From positions 124,001 through 188,000 of IMG/VR virus record IMGVR_UViG_3300020195_000009: a stretch of DNA of 64,000 bases; one strand, given 5' to 3'. This document shows, piece after piece, positions 20,318 through 37,939 of this stretch (positions within the stretch are counted from its first letter, which is position 1; the number at the start of each line of letters is the position of its first letter). The translations under genes and the position numbers were made by a program. This DNA is from a virus. The notes under the pieces were generated by a model. The model worked only from the letters and a program-made list of their open reading frames with translations. It searched no databases and was not told the origin of the DNA.

Positions 20318-21388
20318 TCAAGCCGACTCCGTCTCCTGTTTGCGGCCCGGCATCTTGCTCCAAACCGTCACGACGGTCTTGAGTAGTTCGTTGTGAATGG
20401 GATCCCCATTGAGGAACTTCTCCCAACTACCCCCACTCTGACGGAAGACCGACCTCATCACTTTGAAGTCGGTCTCTTCTGTAACGGTATCTTCCGACAC
20501 CATGTGATCCACAAGTTGACGGATGACGCGATCCCCAAAATTCAAAGGAACCTCAGGCGGGCAATCGAAGGAAGCTGCCTTCTCGTTCAACTTCTCGATG
20601 ACCGAGCCGTCATGAAGGTAAGCTTCCTCCATGGAAGGCACGAGGTACTGACTACGAAGCGTAGACGCCTCGTGCCCTACCGCTTCGGCAGCCCCTTCGA
20701 TGGCCTTCTTGAACTCGGCCTTGAGGATCTTGTCCTTCTCTTTGCGACCGGCTGGAAGCTTCGGACCCCCTGACCGAATCTTCCTCAGGCGCTCTTGGAC
20801 CTCCGTGTTCGCGTGAAGACCCCGGATGTCCTTGGCCGTGATGTCGAAGTCGGTCAGGTAGGCGTTGACTTCTTTCGCTCCCACGCACCCATCATCGTGG
20901 GAGAAGATGCAGGTCTCGCCCCCCTCCACAGAGTCGTAGGCCTTGCGGAGCGCCTTGAGGATCTGGCCGTCCGAGACCTTTTTCTCGTGCTTGACTCCAG
21001 ACTTGCCAACGTACTTGACCGTTGCTGTCCCCTTGCCGAACGACAAGTGACGCTTCTGCCAGCCTGTCACCCCAAAGTGGCCCTCATCGGCGGACCCGTC
21101 GTTTCCGACTCGCTCGTAGGTGTGGTCAATCAAGGCAACCGCAAGAGCCGTCAGCTTGGTGGACAGGTCCTTGGAACCCATGTCGGATTTGACTTTAGTT
21201 CGGAGCTTCCCCATCGATTGACGAAGCTTCTCGACACGATTGGCCTTCTCGTTGTTGCGGTTCGCGATCTGACGATCGCTATACTCGTAGACCGTCATGT
21301 CCTCACCGGACTCGGTCTTGATCTTCTTCTTGGACTTGTACCTAGCCACAACGCGAAGGGCTATCGGGTCTAGCTGGGGAATCCTCAT
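20318..21388 (-). CDS. Type IB DNA topoisomerase
   Basis: 356 residues. The catalytic set of bacterial/poxvirus type IB topoisomerases is visible in order: R93 in DHTYERVGND, K129 in KYVGKSGV, R189 in KDIRGLHAN, H239 in VGHEAST and nucleophile Y248 in RSQYLVP. The GHFGVTGWQKRHLSFG segment is the usual strand before the lysine. These enzymes relax supercoils by a 3'-phosphotyrosyl intermediate. The N-terminus bears LRVVARYKSKKK (residues 11-22), a peptide like those on other packaging-block proteins. The gene overlaps the terminase stop by four bases. A topoisomerase in this position suggests action during packaging or ejection, which is inference. Confidence 0.88.
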   Translation of the reverse strand: MRIPQLDPIALRVVARYKSKKKIKTESGEDMTVYEYSDRQIANRNNEKANRVEKLRQSMGKLRTKVKSDMGSKDLSTKLTALAVALIDHTYERVGNDGSADEGHFGVTGWQKRHLSFGKGTATVKYVGKSGVKHEKKVSDGQILKALRKAYDSVEGGETCIFSHDDGCVGAKEVNAYLTDFDITAKDIRGLHANTEVQERLRKIRSGGPKLPAGRKEKDKILKAEFKKAIEGAAEAVGHEASTLRSQYLVPSMEEAYLHDGSVIEKLNEKAASFDCPPEVPLNFGDRVIRQLVDHMVSEDTVTEETDFKVMRSVFRQSGGSWEKFLNGDPIHNELLKTVVTVWSKMPGRKQETESA

Positions 21389-29398: not shown

Positions 29399-30028
29399 TC
29401 AGAAACAACCATCCCCACCGCGGTTTGACCACTGCGGCAAGCGAACTTCGCGCAAGATGTTGAACTTCTTGGAAGCTATACTGGAGAAAACCTTGTGGTA
29501 AGGGACGAACTTGCCCTCTTCGCCGGCACGTTTTTCCAGTGTCTTGACGGCCCCAAAGAAACGATGACGCACTCGACCTTGCGTGAGCCCGAGTCGCGTA
29601 GCGACTTCACTCTGGCAGGTCGTTTGCCACATCCCCACGAGGATATCGACGTCGATAGGTTTGAACGGAACGTCGGGGAGGTCCTGACGCATCTCATCTT
29701 CGCTGATTTGCGGAATTGAAAGAAGGAACCGTATGCGTTGTAAGCCCCGATCCAGCCGATAGCTGATCGCCGCTTGCGTGACGCCGAAAATCTCAGCGAT
29801 GTCGGCTTGGCGCTTCTTTTGGATGTAGTAGAGGAAGATGAGATCAGCCTCTCGCTCTGGGATCCGATCCAGTAGGGGCTTGACCTGGTTCTCGTAGTTG
29901 AGGGTTGATAGGAGGGGCTCTACGTTGGGCTCCTCTTCCTCATCAAGATCATCAAAGAGCCGGTCTGGGGCTGCGAATCTGTTGGCGAGTTCTGCCGGGT
30001 CAACCGAAATAGTGAAGCCGCCACTCAT
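29399..30028 (-). CDS. Sigma-like transcription factor with two helix-turn-helix regions
   Basis: 209 residues, start at ATG 30028 behind GGAGG. Residues about 45-105 match sigma region 4 and related HTH modules: LLDRIPEREADLIFLYYIQ (the P-R-E-x-x-V-L type turn) and ADIAEIFGVTQAAISYRLDRGLQRIRFL. A second HTH follows (SEVATRLGLTQGRVRHRFFGAVKTL). The acidic N-terminus (FDDLDEEEEPN) is unstructured. It probably directs RNA polymerase to late phage promoters or replaces part of a sigma factor. Encoded between the NusG-nuclease fusion and the virion genes, the right place for a late switch. Confidence 0.75.
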   Translation of the reverse strand: MSGGFTISVDPAELANRFAAPDRLFDDLDEEEEPNVEPLLSTLNYENQVKPLLDRIPEREADLIFLYYIQKKRQADIAEIFGVTQAAISYRLDRGLQRIRFLLSIPQISEDEMRQDLPDVPFKPIDVDILVGMWQTTCQSEVATRLGLTQGRVRHRFFGAVKTLEKRAGEEGKFVPYHKVFSSIASKKFNILREVRLPQWSNRGGDGCF

Positions 30029-30049: not shown

Positions 30050-32095
30050 TCACTCGGAAAAGGCGAGTTGTTCTTGTCGCTTCGCAAATCCTCGTGAAGC
30101 GGTCTGAAAGAAGGGTTCCACTATCGAGTCGGCTTGGATGCTGAGCCCACCGATGACTTCGGAGGCGATCTTTGCATCAGGACTCGGAGCGATCTCATCA
30201 AACGAGAGATCGTCGCGTAGCTGCATGAGATTCAAATTGAGGCGGACCTGAGCTTCGGCCGCACGGATCTTCGCGTACTGCCCGGCGGTGATGCCAGACA
30301 AGTTGGATGCGAAGACCTCATCAACTGAACCGTAGTTTTTCAAGAGCGCCGTCAGAACTTTCGTAGGTACCCGGCCACCGACACCCGGTACCTCATCTGA
30401 ATCGTCCCCGAGTAACGCCCGAAGTTGGACCATGCGTTCGGGTGTGACTCCATATTCTTCCACAACTTTGTCCCGGTCGTAAAGGGTCTCCTGTCGATTT
30501 CCGACCTTGGGTGATAGCACGATGTCAGTCAATGTCACCAACTGTAAGAAGTCTTGGTCCGTAGAGAGGATGACGTTCCTCTGACCTTTGAGCTTGCCTC
30601 GGACAAGACAAGCGATGACGTCATCCGTTTCTTCCTCGGCGTTGAATGCTTGGGTGACACCCAGGAGGGGGAGGATGTTTCGCAGGCGACTCATCTGGCT
30701 CTCAGGGCCAACAGAGGCACCATTCAAGGACCCGTTGGCCGCTCGCTCGGCTGCTCGCTTCTCACGCCGCTTAATCTTGTACCCCTCAAAGAGGTTGATA
30801 CGACGCTGCGGGGATCCGTCCCAAACAACGTAAATTGAGGCATTTGCAAATCTCTTCTTGAGACTAGCCAGGCTTTTCAAGAACCCAAACACGAGGGAGG
30901 TGGGGTTCCCTTCTGCGTCCGTGAGGGGTTTCTTCATGGCCCCGAGGGCATGAGAGACTCGGTACGCGAGGTTGTGCCCATCGATGATGACGTTCTCGAA
31001 CATGTCCGATCTCCCTGTTAGCGCCTCAACGTTACCCACGTTACGGGCCAGCCCATTCAATCTCTGTACGATGTCTTGGAGCCACTGAGACTCAAGCATT
31101 TTTGCTTCTACTTGAGCGTTGAGTGTCGGTAAGGTGGCGAGAGCTGGGGCCGCTTGGAGGTATTGAAACCAAGCTGGACCTCGTTCTATCAACGAGTCCA
31201 TTTGATGCACAAGGCCGTATTTTTCAGCGACCTTGTCCATCACTGGAGTGGGCTTTACTTGGAGACCGAGCTTACGACTACGATCCAACCAACCACCAAA
31301 GAGTTGAACCCCTTGGTGACTATGCAACAAAAGGGTGATTGGAGGAGGGCCTGAGGGGAGCGTCATCTGACGGCGGATGTGTTTGACGCGATCCAACCGT
31401 ACAAGGCCTAGCTCGATATTACCGAGGTCTCGGACGGCCTGCTCGACCTCCCTAAACCCAGAGGGAACCCACGACAGAATGGGTTGAACCAACCGACTCC
31501 ACTCTCGGATCCGTTCGATCTTCGTCATGAACGGAGAGAATGTGGGAAGATCCGACTGGTCCTTCGAGACGAATCGGAGAAACGACCTGGGGAGCGTGAC
31601 TATGGCTTCTTTGGATCGAAGCTTGATATAGACCTGAACTGAATCGGTCTCTGGGATCTCCTCGATGATCCGGCCGTTGATGCCCTTGTAGGGGCCGTTC
31701 ATCACCTGAACTTCATCCCCTACTTCAATACCTTGTTCTGTTTCAACGTGTATTTGACGACGCATCTTGTCGATGTCCACGTCTCGAACAGTCGCCATCT
31801 CACGGTAGGTGGTCTTTCGGTCCAAAGCCCGAGCTACCGTCAGAACCGAAGCGACGTACCGCGTACCCTCAAGCCGCATATACGCAGAGTCAGGGAGGGT
31901 CCTACGTACAAAGACGTAGTTGTCGATCAGCTTGTGGATGACACGGCTATCTCCGACGATGGACACGGAGGCAGGGATGAAAATCTCGACCGTCTTGTCT
32001 CGGAATACACGAGCTAGAGCGGAGGCGAGGACCTCTGGGTCTTCGTCTTCTCCTTGAGGGGAAAGCTCTAAGACGACCCAATCACGCGTCGCCAC
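30050..32095 (-). CDS. Fusion of NusG-like transcription factor and flap endonuclease
   Basis: 681 residues, GTG start at 32095 (14-base overlap with the tau gene). Residues 4-90 resemble a NusG NGN domain (DWVVLELS, then LIDNYVFVRRTLPD, LEGTRYVASVL); residues 122-176 are a KOW domain (GIEVGDEVQVMNGPYKG, GRIIEEI). A 190-residue linker follows. Residues 368-640 are a FEN/5'-3' exonuclease: D372 in IIDGHNLA, D426 in VVWDGSPQRR, acidic E488/E489/D491/D492 in EEETDDVI, D513/D515 in STDQDF, and GDDSDEVPGVGG at 563-574 (helix-hairpin-helix). All catalytic acids appear present. The first part should contact RNA polymerase; the second should cut flaps or RNA-DNA hybrids. Confidence 0.85.
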   Translation of the reverse strand: MATRDWVVLELSPQGEDEDPEVLASALARVFRDKTVEIFIPASVSIVGDSRVIHKLIDNYVFVRRTLPDSAYMRLEGTRYVASVLTVARALDRKTTYREMATVRDVDIDKMRRQIHVETEQGIEVGDEVQVMNGPYKGINGRIIEEIPETDSVQVYIKLRSKEAIVTLPRSFLRFVSKDQSDLPTFSPFMTKIERIREWSRLVQPILSWVPSGFREVEQAVRDLGNIELGLVRLDRVKHIRRQMTLPSGPPPITLLLHSHQGVQLFGGWLDRSRKLGLQVKPTPVMDKVAEKYGLVHQMDSLIERGPAWFQYLQAAPALATLPTLNAQVEAKMLESQWLQDIVQRLNGLARNVGNVEALTGRSDMFENVIIDGHNLAYRVSHALGAMKKPLTDAEGNPTSLVFGFLKSLASLKKRFANASIYVVWDGSPQRRINLFEGYKIKRREKRAAERAANGSLNGASVGPESQMSRLRNILPLLGVTQAFNAEEETDDVIACLVRGKLKGQRNVILSTDQDFLQLVTLTDIVLSPKVGNRQETLYDRDKVVEEYGVTPERMVQLRALLGDDSDEVPGVGGRVPTKVLTALLKNYGSVDEVFASNLSGITAGQYAKIRAAEAQVRLNLNLMQLRDDLSFDEIAPSPDAKIASEVIGGLSIQADSIVEPFFQTASRGFAKRQEQLAFSE

Positions 32096-33602
32096 GAGAT
32101 ATCACTCCTCGATTCAACCAGAGTGTTTCAAAACCCCTTCGCCAAACGGATGGGCTAACGATGTCTCTCCCATCCCTCAACCGATGCTCATCCCAGAGGA
32201 TGGGCGCCTTTGCGTGTTTGTTCGCCGGTAAAGGGCCGGGAACTGCAAAATGATCAAACTCCCCGAGCGCACACGGATCTTGACCTGAAGGGCCCACTCC
32301 ATCGGCACGGACATCCGGCCCAACGGATCTTGGTTGAGGTATGAATTTCTGAGGTGGGGCTGGAGCTGCCAAGACCTGCGGTAGTGGAGCCTGAGCTGGG
32401 GCCGCCACTGGGAGTACAGGGGCCTGCACGGGGACCTCAGGGGTTGAGGCTGGCTCGGGTGAGATTTGTAGAGGTGCTGGGACCGCTACTGGACTTGGAG
32501 CTGGACCCAACGGTTGAAGCGGTGGGGGTTGCTGCTGTTGACGTGGAGCGATTGGGTGCTCTGAGGTGAGTTCCTCTGCCGCCATCAACACATCACAGAT
32601 CAAGCCGACTTTGGTTACATACCTTGACCGAAGGAAGCGTTCTGCGAGGCGAACAAGCCTTTGCCCCCCGTACGCCTGGAAAGCCTTTTGACCGAGATCC
32701 TTGTCGGCGAATGTGAAGTCAGCGGTCATCCCGGTTGCCAACCGGAACGAATTCATCGCGGCTTCTGCGAGACCGGAAGCCACTTCTTCGGGGGTGACTC
32801 GATCACAAGCCTTGTCTACGTAGGACAAAGCCTCTTTGGTGTCCGAGGCGATGCGCAGAAGGATCTCGTAGTAGGTCGATACAACGGAGAGGTTGAGGTT
32901 GGCTCGTACGCTCTCCACCGTTACAGGACCCATCTGGGCAACCATCTCCAGACGGTTGATTACGTCACGTACGTGACCCCCAGAGAAGTCGATGACGATG
33001 AGAAGGGCATCATCCTCGTGCTCAACCTTCTCTGACGTGAGGATGCTCTTCACCCGAGCAAGGATATCCTCTCGGGTCACCTTACGGATTGCGTACTCCT
33101 CACACCTCGACCGGATGGCGCCACGTACCTTCTCAGGTTCCGTCGTACAGAACATCCCAACGAGCTTCTTTTCCTCCAAGGGTTTGAGAAGAACGTCTTG
33201 GGCGTCCTTGCTCATCCGGTGGCACTCGTCGATGACGTAGATGCGCTTCTTGGCTCCGAAGACAGCGAAGGGGAGGTCGTCTACGATCTTTCGTACGTGT
33301 TCGATCGTCCCACGGCTAGCCGCATCCAGTTCGACGAAAGCACCGAGGTTATCATCCAAGACCCCCTTGCAGTTCTCACACTCGTTACAAGGCTCAGGGT
33401 TCGCAGGGTCGAGCTGTTGACAAAGCACGGCCCTCGCAAGGATCCGGGCTAGGGTAGTCTTCCCTTGTCCCGGACCCCCGCAAAAGATGTAGCTCGTGTC
33501 TAGGGCCGTCCCGTTACGAAGCCTCGATTTGAGGACTTGAACGGTGCCTTCTTGACCGAGGACATCGGCGAACTTGAGCGGCCTATACTTCGTATCCCAC
33601 AC
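32082..33602 (-). CDS. dnaX: Clamp-loader subunit tau/gamma (DnaX-like)
   Basis: 506 residues. N-terminal AAA+ ATPase: YRPLKFADVLGQE, Walker A GGPGQGKTT at 42-50, a zinc site C61, C72, C75, C78 (CNECENC), Walker B YVIDECH with D125/E126, and sensor region FCTTEPEKVRGAIRSRC with the SRC arginine finger. Residues to about 370 cover lid and collar. The tail (370-506) is Q/P/A-rich and unlike host tau polymerase-binding domains. It opens the sliding clamp with delta and delta-prime, both also encoded here, so the phage brings a complete bacterial-type loader. Confidence 0.92.
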   Translation of the reverse strand: MWDTKYRPLKFADVLGQEGTVQVLKSRLRNGTALDTSYIFCGGPGQGKTTLARILARAVLCQQLDPANPEPCNECENCKGVLDDNLGAFVELDAASRGTIEHVRKIVDDLPFAVFGAKKRIYVIDECHRMSKDAQDVLLKPLEEKKLVGMFCTTEPEKVRGAIRSRCEEYAIRKVTREDILARVKSILTSEKVEHEDDALLIVIDFSGGHVRDVINRLEMVAQMGPVTVESVRANLNLSVVSTYYEILLRIASDTKEALSYVDKACDRVTPEEVASGLAEAAMNSFRLATGMTADFTFADKDLGQKAFQAYGGQRLVRLAERFLRSRYVTKVGLICDVLMAAEELTSEHPIAPRQQQQPPPLQPLGPAPSPVAVPAPLQISPEPASTPEVPVQAPVLPVAAPAQAPLPQVLAAPAPPQKFIPQPRSVGPDVRADGVGPSGQDPCALGEFDHFAVPGPLPANKHAKAPILWDEHRLRDGRDIVSPSVWRRGFETLWLNRGVISRGDA

Positions 33603-34128: not shown

Positions 34129-34830
34129 TCACTCCATTTGGGCTTGAAGAAACGACTTGAAACGATCATCACCCCAGGCTTCCCAGAGGTCACCAGGGTC
34201 CTTAATAGCTTTACCGTTCGGTAGTTTGACTCCTATCGGGTAGCCCACCGACCGGACTTCTTCAAATTGACCTCCGTACTCTTTAACGAAGGCCGAGTAA
34301 ACACGAATGCCGATCGCATCGTTATCATAGAAGAAGCGCCACCGCTTTACAATACGCCGGCAGGCTCGGAGGAGGTTCCCACTCACCTTGGCCGTGAGCG
34401 TTGACACTGAGTACGGCACAACGCGCTGCGTTGGGAAGTAATCAAACACACCCTCTACGGGCATGATTGCCTCATGCTCCCAGATCGAAGGCATCGCTTG
34501 CCCCAACCCAAAGTAGACGGGCTCCGCTCGGGTGAGGAAGTAGTCCGAGTAGGTCGAGGACCTCTCAACCCCTCGAAATTGAAACCCCAGCACTTCACCA
34601 AGAGGGTTGGTCAGAGGGAAGACGAAGGAGTCAGCCAGCTTCCTCCCGTGCCAGCACCATTCCAAGAAGTCGGCGGGATACTCGGCCGGGGGCAGCTCTT
34701 TGTTTAGGTACCCGATCTGGAGGAGATCGATTTGGTCCTCTGACGCCCCACGAGTCCAAAGGGCTTCCCGGACTCGCTCGTCCAGGCCACCCTTCGCGTA
34801 GTTCACCAGAGTTTCAACCCAAGCTGCCAT
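34129..34830 (-). CDS. DnaG-type primase catalytic core (TOPRIM)
   Basis: 233 residues. N-terminal part resembles the DnaG core before TOPRIM (IGYLNKELPPAEYP, DSFVFPLTNPLGEVLGFQFRG); TOPRIM follows: EAIMPVEGVFDYF with the catalytic glutamate in VEG, and FYDNDAIGIRV with the DxD of the domain, then KDPGDLWEAWG. No N-terminal CHC2 zinc finger and no helicase domain are present, so it is shorter than bacterial DnaG. It synthesises RNA primers for lagging-strand replication, probably with a helicase outside the window. Confidence 0.85.
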   Translation of the reverse strand: MAAWVETLVNYAKGGLDERVREALWTRGASEDQIDLLQIGYLNKELPPAEYPADFLEWCWHGRKLADSFVFPLTNPLGEVLGFQFRGVERSSTYSDYFLTRAEPVYFGLGQAMPSIWEHEAIMPVEGVFDYFPTQRVVPYSVSTLTAKVSGNLLRACRRIVKRWRFFYDNDAIGIRVYSAFVKEYGGQFEEVRSVGYPIGVKLPNGKAIKDPGDLWEAWGDDRFKSFLQAQME

Positions 34831-36039: not shown

Positions 36040-36725
36040 GCCCCTCGCAACCTCTTCACCACGAACTCACTCTTTACACCTACCGGCTTGGAGTCCCCTT
36101 GATATGAGACGCTAGCGTGCTCAAGGAACGCCGGCTTGTGAGTCACCATGAGAAGGGAGAGGTTGCTTGTGTCGGCTAACTTCTGGAGGAAATGCCCCGT
36201 CGCCTCGATGTAGTCGTCCGAAACTGCCGCAAGAGTCTCATCCAAGAGCAGGATCTTCTTACGCTTCAATCGGAGAAGAGTGAGGATTCGCAGGATGAGG
36301 CTAGCGATGCTAGACGGACCTCCGCCGAACGAATCCAGCGGGGAACCCTTGATCCCACCATTGTCAGGATCCCCTTGGCAGATGTAGAACTCGACGCTGA
36401 TTTTGTTGTACTTCTGCGACACTTCCGCTCGGAAGCTGAGGTCTTGATCGAAGAAGATGGTTCGCAGCCCTTCCGATACGATCGTTTCGATCATACGGAC
36501 TTGCCCCATCACCATCTGATCCATGAGGACCCGGTACAACTCAGAGACCTTCGTGAGGATCTCTTGCCGACGCGTAAGCTCCTCAATCTCTTCTTCCTTG
36601 ACGGTCAGCTCGTCAGCGAGTTGGTCCCTAACCACCCTCAGCCGAATGGCTGAGTTTTGGAGATGTTGAACACGCTGAGACCAGCCGTTTACTCTTTCGA
36701 CGGCATGAAGCGTGTCACTCTGCAT
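36036..36725 (-). CDS. Rad50/SbcC C-terminal ATPase half (split gene)
   Basis: 229 residues. A short helical N-terminus (about 1-65) leads into the C-terminal ABC-ATPase lobe of the Rad50/SbcC family: signature-like FGGGPSS at 133-139, a helix LILRILTLL, Walker B KILLLDETLA around 157-166 and the H-loop VTHKP with H196. There is no Walker A and no CxxC zinc hook; both lie in the separate gene at 40199-41422. Together with Mre11 (39229) the two halves should form the DNA-end processing complex, the counterpart of T4 gp46/gp47. The gene overlaps the clamp gene by 37 bases. Confidence 0.8.
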   Translation of the reverse strand: MQSDTLHAVERVNGWSQRVQHLQNSAIRLRVVRDQLADELTVKEEEIEELTRRQEILTKVSELYRVLMDQMVMGQVRMIETIVSEGLRTIFFDQDLSFRAEVSQKYNKISVEFYICQGDPDNGGIKGSPLDSFGGGPSSIASLILRILTLLRLKRKKILLLDETLAAVSDDYIEATGHFLQKLADTSNLSLLMVTHKPAFLEHASVSYQGDSKPVGVKSEFVVKRLRGA

Positions 36726-37939
36726 TTGTACGTGTCCTCTGGCTCGAAGACGGACTTCCCGGCGGCATCCAGGCGGAAGTCGTCGAGGGTTCGGAACATT
36801 CCGACCTCCTTCCTACCTCCTTCTGGGGCCAGAATCAAAACGTGAAGCTCTACGTCGACCGATTTCACCCGCTCGATCAGGTCGATCATGTGGTCGATGT
36901 TGATACTGAAGGCCCAGTCGCGAGCCTCCATCCAGTCCTTGCCGTCGATCTGCTTCGGTCGGACCGTAACGGGTAGGCTGTCGGTCTTGGAAGTACCTTC
37001 GGAAACCCCGAACTGAACCCGTCGCAGCTCGTGGTTGAACTGGATCTTGATCTTGTCCCGGCTCTTCTCAAGCTCACTTCGCGTGTACTTGAGGGAGTTC
37101 AAGAGCTGCACCTTGTCGATGAGAAAGATGTTCTTGTCACTCTTGAGCGGGTAGTACTTGAACTGAGCGTGAACCTTGGCGTGTTTCGGCCAGCCAAGGA
37201 CGTGCCCCTTTGCGTTCTCGACAAACGTGAAGTGTGCCCCCATGCGGAAGGTCACCTCCTTATCAGCACTCTTGCTGAGGAACGAGATCAAAGCAGGCAA
37301 GTGTTGGGAGTGGATTTCGAGCCCCTTACCCGCAAATGCCTCGCACCAGAAGTAGTAGGCTCGGACACTGTCCGAAGCCAACAGGTGCCCATCTCCCTTG
37401 ACGTACTCCGGCTTTGAGGCGTCGAAGACCTGAAGGGCCTTGTACTGCTCCTCGATCCGGGTGTCCGTAGTCTTCGCCAGGAAGGGGCGGCTCATGTCGA
37501 TCGCCTCCTTCAAGATGGCCGTGGGGTAGTTGTGCGTCGTCGTTGTGGCGTTGAGATCATCGTCACAGGTGGACAGGAGCTTCGGGTTAAACGAGGTTCG
37601 CTCCGTACGGGCTCCATTGGACGACTCGTATCGAACAATGAAACGCTCATCTTCCTTGGCTTCGGCCTCAAACGTGAGGGTCTGGCCATCCAGGTACCTG
37701 AGCGCGTCGATGAACTCTGCCGGATATACGAAAGACCCGTCCTCATCCACCTCGACAAGATCGAAACTCGCTCTTGCCACGCACTGGTCGTCACGGGAGT
37801 AGACGTGGCACTTGGTACCTTGGACCATGAAAAGGTACCCAGCTCCGCCTTGTGCCGTCACGGCCCGAGGGGTGACGATCTTCACCACGTCGAGAGCGGC
37901 GATCAGGTCTGACGCGTTTAGCTTGAATTTCATCTTCAT
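36689..37939 (-). CDS. dnaN: DNA polymerase sliding clamp (DnaN-like)
   Basis: 416 residues, longer than the 366-380 of bacterial beta clamps. The N-terminus (MKFKLNASDLIAALDVVKIVTPRA after a leading MK) and the three-domain pattern, with FIDALRYLDGQTLTFEAE, FLSKSADKEVTFRMG and a last strand YKCRVTRFMPSKE that resembles the usual C-terminal MPMR, identify it. Dimeric rings hold the polymerase on DNA. In T4 the clamp also activates late transcription, of interest because a sigma-like factor is encoded downstream. Insertions of about 40 residues occur in the middle domain. Confidence 0.85.
   Translation of the reverse strand: MKMKFKLNASDLIAALDVVKIVTPRAVTAQGGAGYLFMVQGTKCHVYSRDDQCVARASFDLVEVDEDGSFVYPAEFIDALRYLDGQTLTFEAEAKEDERFIVRYESSNGARTERTSFNPKLLSTCDDDLNATTTTHNYPTAILKEAIDMSRPFLAKTTDTRIEEQYKALQVFDASKPEYVKGDGHLLASDSVRAYYFWCEAFAGKGLEIHSQHLPALISFLSKSADKEVTFRMGAHFTFVENAKGHVLGWPKHAKVHAQFKYYPLKSDKNIFLIDKVQLLNSLKYTRSELEKSRDKIKIQFNHELRRVQFGVSEGTSKTDSLPVTVRPKQIDGKDWMEARDWAFSINIDHMIDLIERVKSVDVELHVLILAPEGGRKEVGMFRTLDDFRLDAAGKSVFEPEDTYKCRVTRFMPSKE

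Follow-up and report, generated by a model that had tools for sequence, protein, structure and literature searches.

A single gene of a very large phage raises the question of whether one protein can carry both a transcription elongation factor and a flap endonuclease (FEN) and, if so, what the union serves. FEN is a core replication enzyme, and no transcription factor family other than NusG/Spt5 is, to our knowledge, universally conserved. The gene lies at 30050..32095 (-) of the window, the 64,000-nucleotide stretch of an IMG/VR virus record analysed here, and is present in a single copy in the parent 286-kb record. It encodes 681 amino acids from a GTG start, and the frame runs open from its GTG to its TGA; neither a stop nor a frameshift separates its two halves, as a first-pass annotation had read it. 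In order, the protein comprises an NGN domain (residues 5-112; 31760..32083 (-)), a KOW domain (residues 125-176; 31568..31723 (-)), a variable helical linker (residues 178-366; 30998..31564 (-)) and a FEN/PolA-type 5'-3' exonuclease domain (residues 368-663; 30107..30994 (-)).

The NGN and KOW pair, placed by the first-pass annotation at residues 4-176, is recovered by profile searches of Pfam, PHROGs and NCBIfam, a PDB sequence search, AlphaFold and Foldseek. The NGN domain scores 19.8 bits against Pfam NusG in the protein scan, just under the cutoff of 22.2, and 23.7 bits, over the cutoff, in the genome scan, while the KOW domain exceeds its Pfam cutoff. Among the NCBIfam profiles, TIGR00922 (nusG) matches residues 6-168 (E=2.3e-10), and the NusG of T. 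maritima matches the NGN part in the PDB search (E=7e-8). An AlphaFold model of residues 1-367 has pLDDT values near 93 for NGN and near 90 for KOW; searched with this model, Foldseek returns NusG, RfaH and Spt5 in its top 30 ranks (best E=1e-9). The order of NGN followed by KOW, which is that of the NusG/Spt5 family, is supported by TIGR00922, AlphaFold and Foldseek, and residues 1-176 adopt the corresponding fold. None of the NCBIfam equivalog cutoffs is reached by the NGN-KOW part. Identity as RfaH is ruled out by a score of 20 bits against the RfaH model, far under its cutoff of 144.5. Among viral structures, the NGN part is matched best in fold by BFVD A0A8S5LRJ5, annotated as an RNA polymerase (RNAP) alpha subunit, an annotation that may be wrong.

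The NGN residues W6, E10, P41, Y60 and F62, which correspond to the RNAP-binding surface of NusG and RfaH, are invariant. Y60 and F62, conserved in all 46 sequences, align with Y54 and F56 of RfaH, which sit on the face that meets the beta' clamp helices (PMC2871177). The protein thereby shares with NusG, RfaH, UpxY and LoaP the order NGN then KOW, the fold and the Y-x-F on the RNAP-binding face; unlike them, it is encoded by a phage, adjoins a clamp loader gene and adds a FEN of about 300 residues after a long linker. In E. coli NusG, the KOW loop I164-F165-G166 contacts Rho (PMC7593976). The window protein has L-R-S (159-161) instead of IFG, and across the family these positions read L/F-R-S, the R and the S being the same in 46/46 sequences; the Rho-contacting loop of housekeeping NusG is thus absent at the aligned KOW positions in all 46. 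RfaH has likewise lost this loop (PMC7593976). AlphaFold models the KOW domain as a beta barrel and not as the RfaH hairpin, in a prediction that shows one state only. Because the Rho-binding loop is lost while the RfaH-type Tyr and Phe are kept, the NusG half is predicted to act as an antiterminator and not to assist Rho-dependent termination. The phage records searched yielded no gene for RNAP beta or beta', and so the NusG half should act on the RNAP of the host.

The carboxy-terminal half is a full FEN, with all the acidic motifs that had been claimed for it. Both Pfam domains are over cutoff (5_3_exonuc_N, PF02739, 2e-26; 5_3_exonuc, PF01367, 5e-12), and nine catalytic acids (D372, D426, E489, D491, D492, D513, D515, D564 and D567) are invariant in 22 sequences, as is the arch lysine K440. 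A PDB sequence search likewise identifies this half, and its best fold match is the M. smegmatis flap endonuclease (6c33). Compared with the N-domains of Taq and M. smegmatis Pol I, 6c33, ExoIX, T5 D15 and T4 RNase H, the domain resembles PolA-type FENs in having an N-terminal resolvase-like domain, a C-terminal SAM domain and all catalytic acids, but it is joined to a transcription factor and not to a polymerase. A C-terminal I-[VL]-x-x-F-F stretch (window 30107-30133) is conserved before a disordered tail; its role may be structural, as it is in PolA, or it may bind the clamp. The region resembles the PolA 5' nuclease at what we take to be its conserved end, and a PIP-like clamp-binding role was dropped on account of this likeness.

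Exactly one FEN is present in each of the 28 fused or split contigs searched. The phage also encodes a family-A polymerase (PolA) of 1023 amino acids without a 5' nuclease domain, in a separate gene (G000:C1:22372-23586), and the fusion chain contains no DNA_pol_A domain. PolA matches are interrupted in the huge phage LR745208.1 and in contig G008, possibly by inteins. Since this is the sole FEN, the PolA lacks a 5' nuclease domain and an NAD ligase is encoded, the FEN half is probably the primer and flap remover of the phage. In T4 this role belongs to T4 RNase H (PMC3012046).

An AlphaFold run of the whole chain on a 22-row family alignment gave confident NGN, KOW and FEN domains, with pLDDT near 88, 82 and 90, respectively. 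The linker is helical and poorly modelled (pLDDT mostly 40-60), and contacts between the domains are never predicted with confidence. With the full chain, Foldseek retrieves FENs at 3e-17 and also NusG at 4e-9; the match is carried by these E-values and the probabilities, global TM-scores being low, as expected where domain orientation is free. The linker has 187 residues in the window protein and 99-190 across the fused family.

The architecture extends well beyond the window. IMG/VR scans and open reading frame comparison identified the same fusion in 43 other viral contigs, the largest of 512 kb; these include near-copies, and all fused members are metagenomic contigs. The most distant fused relatives share about 35% identity. 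NGN-KOW and FEN each have a mean pairwise identity of 0.53 and the linker one of 0.21, and dN/dS, among pairs with estimable dS, is 0.03-0.08 for NGN-KOW, 0.05-0.11 for FEN and 0.08-0.23 for the linker. Both domains are under purifying selection. A chance or assembly artefact is ruled out by the many independent contigs and the equal conservation of the halves. No fusion was found among the INPHARED cultured phages in a search with NGN, plasmids gave no match to the NGN part, and the 80 loci retained from a scan of host genome contigs contained ordinary FENs only.

Of the FEN-bearing contigs found, only two lack the fused form. In those two, the NGN with its linker and the FEN are separate open reading frames cut at the start of the FEN. 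In L054, a 320-amino acid NGN protein with linker is followed by the FEN gene with a clean 4-nucleotide ATGA overlap; in L026 the two frames overlap by 26 nucleotides at an A7 run at the junction, a split that is possibly a sequencing error. In both, the NGN protein still ends in a long C-terminal extension. Standalone NGN-KOW proteins of 172-207 amino acids occur in L074, L075, L077-L086 and LR745208.1. A midpoint-rooted tree was built from NGN-KOW plus a neighbouring sigma-like protein, with 35 distinct fused NGN-KOW sequences as input, that of the window included. In this tree the FEN-bearing members group together (96/96), the standalone forms fall outside, and the two splits lie at different places within the fused clade. 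Because the splits nest separately, the simplest history, given a correct root, is a single fusion followed by two splits, and the position of the splits inside the fused clade implies that some members can do without the covalent link.

These data bear on the main rival to a bifunctional coupling protein, namely a passive operon fusion in which adjacent genes for a NusG paralogue and a FEN were joined by stop loss or a frameshift, so that each domain works alone and the union gives no more than equal dosage and co-expression. Such an origin would fit the two independent splits, which share a boundary, as well as a linker variable in both length and sequence, the existence of standalone relatives without a FEN and a start codon at the FEN boundary. 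However, one indel or stop would be enough to undo the fusion, yet the fused form persists among relatives as distant as about 35% identity, and the split members have kept the long extension of their NGN protein. A passive fusion is possible, if somewhat unlikely.

The start codon at the boundary points to a further alternative. In the window, an in-frame ATG (Met365; 31001..31003 (-)) lies three codons 5' of the first conserved FEN residue, Asn368, and is a candidate internal start. ATG, GTG or TTG is found at this position in 17 of 28 representatives, whereas no other linker position tested has such a codon in more than 7 of 28, and the split members begin their FEN at or beside it. Since both splits fall at the FEN start, where most fused members keep a start codon, a free FEN may also be made; the case for an internal start, drawn from codon positions, is suggestive. 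In the fullest form of this alternative, the gene would yield two products, with most of the nuclease free and a minority of full-length NusG-FEN tethered to RNAP. A strong Shine-Dalgarno match precedes the boundary in the window and in some relatives, but Shine-Dalgarno strength overall is not above that expected from the encoded amino acids (Fisher P=0.44), and a start codon is missing at this position from one large subclade. A two-product gene of this kind seems distinctly unlikely.

The fusion gene belongs to a run of genes in the order sliding clamp homologue (36689..37939 (-)), three small proteins, primase-like (toprim) protein (34129..34830 (-)), metallopeptidase, DnaX-like clamp loader (32082..33602 (-)), NusG-FEN and sigma-70 region-4-like protein (29399..30028 (-)). 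The clamp loader is directly upstream, and the sigma-like gene directly downstream, in nearly all relatives, and the GTG start of the fusion overlaps the clamp loader stop by 14 nucleotides. With the relatives lacking a FEN included, the clamp loader lies within 60 nucleotides of the fusion or NGN gene in 50 of 52 loci, and in 48 of the 52 the sigma-like gene is no more than 120 nucleotides away. The clamp loader, NusG and sigma gene unit is conserved among very large phages of several lineages. The sigma-like protein has two helix-turn-helix (HTH) stretches and no region 2 match, and is probably a phage promoter- or RNAP-targeting factor. It is 53-86% identical across most fused relatives, which exceeds the conservation of the fusion itself. 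The clamp loader of LR745208.1 (L013 4185-6071) contains an intein-like insert, with Pfam Intein_splicing/HINT matches near residues 153-280.

The window also encodes a large replication and repair set at 20318-21388 and 38229-59200, which includes clamp-loader delta and delta' subunits, topoisomerase IB, RecA, RecD2 and the NAD ligase. The same intervals further contain a PD-(D/E)XK nuclease, an SbcCD-like pair, a B12-type ribonucleotide reductase, a chaperonin and RtcB. The position of the fusion beside the clamp loader and the sigma-like protein suggests, as judged from gene content and order, a physical link between DNA copying and RNA synthesis.

The same neighbourhood could be read in another way, with NGN-KOW as a recruiter that binds the clamp loader or ribosomal S10 in place of RNAP and delivers the FEN to replication forks or to a combined transcription-translation-replication factory. 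Adjacency of the clamp loader and NGN is the most conserved feature of the locus, and it is also found without a FEN in a cultured phage of Acidobacteriota, Tunturiibacter phage Tunturi_5; the KOW loop, moreover, is invariantly changed. Nevertheless, the linked sigma-like gene points to RNAP, as do the invariant Tyr and Phe of the RNAP-binding surface, and such a recruiter is very improbable.

Tunturi_5 resembles the window in that its clamp loader gene (gp24) directly precedes a NusG-like gene (gp25), but the C-terminal extension of gp25 is not a FEN and the genes that follow are unrelated. No FEN was found in this genome. A terminase match at 27% identity also connects the present phages with Tunturi_5 and draws attention to Acidobacteriota. 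The extension in gp25 (L187 10260-11294) spans about 165 residues and is of an unassigned kind. The next product, gp26, was considered as a split FEN and rejected, having no nuclease match and the look of a membrane-anchored, low-complexity protein. LR745208.1, L074, L075 and L077-L086 share the order of clamp loader, NGN-KOW and sigma-region-4 protein with the window, but their NGN-KOW proteins stand alone and no FEN was found in the records searched (0/7 of the standalone-NGN records, contigs that may be incomplete). Bacillus phage G gp582 and the annotated phage NusG-like antiterminators (phrog_6386) are also phage-encoded NusG-like proteins; none of them, however, has a nuclease domain, and the FEN of phage G is separate, about 64 kb away. 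Both modules are thus known, and their joint architecture is apparently undescribed within the literature searched: no description of a fusion of NusG with a flap endonuclease or other nuclease was found, in agreement with the first-pass annotation, although the thin coverage of subscription journals makes this weak evidence.

The closest functional parallel is T4 late transcription (gp45 clamp, gp55, gp33; rnh, ligase), in which the host RNAP is likewise tied to replication proteins and nick sealing (PMC2988020, PMC3012046). This transcription can hinge on ligation and on loading of the clamp at unsealed nicks (PMC2988020). By analogy, a FEN that is joined to an elongation factor and has control over such nicks would be a sensible regulator. 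The proteins are different, T4 has no NusG-FEN, and coupling in the present phages is a proposal.

The first-pass annotation had proposed that the protein directly links transcription and replication on one phage genome. The fusion underlying that proposal is present on this genome and in the 43 further contigs, while physical coupling is only plausible. Conserved neighbours, the lack of detected RNAP beta/beta' genes and a sole FEN make the link more credible; the two members split at the FEN start, and the start codon kept there in most fused ones, weaken it. R-loop removal, also proposed, is one option among several, and primer and flap removal is the default role for the sole FEN of a phage.

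The preferred reading, with a probability of roughly one half, is that of a bifunctional jumbo-phage protein in which an RNAP-binding NusG paralogue is joined to the sole FEN within a transcription-replication hub. It is based on the domains, their conservation, the catalytic residues, synteny and the lack of another FEN or of RNAP beta/beta' in the searched contigs, from which we infer RNAP binding, antitermination, nuclease activity and a role for the covalent link. The NusG paralogue would bind host RNAP through its NGN domain and promote processive, Rho-resistant phage transcription, and the FEN half would clear flaps and the RNA primers of Okazaki fragments ahead of sealing by the phage ligase. 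The tether of about 190 residues and the shared gene run would put nuclease and elongation factor in one hub. The likeliest benefit would be local coordination, with RNAP kept running on a replicating template, and the RNAP-bound form would gain access to 5' flaps, nicks or RNA:DNA hybrids where the two machineries meet. A stricter version, which is rather doubtful, gives a widespread group of jumbo phages a dedicated coupling factor; bound to RNAP as an antiterminator, the protein would carry the sole FEN and act with the clamp loader and the sigma-like protein; host RNAP on replicating phage DNA would then itself remove primers, flaps or R-loops, and phage transcription would be coupled to lagging-strand maturation by a mechanism unrelated to that of T4.

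For the bifunctional protein as for its alternatives, the fusion, its two natural splits and the relatives without a FEN constitute a natural experiment for transcription-replication coupling, through which such coupling in jumbo phages, beyond the T4 system, can be tested directly.
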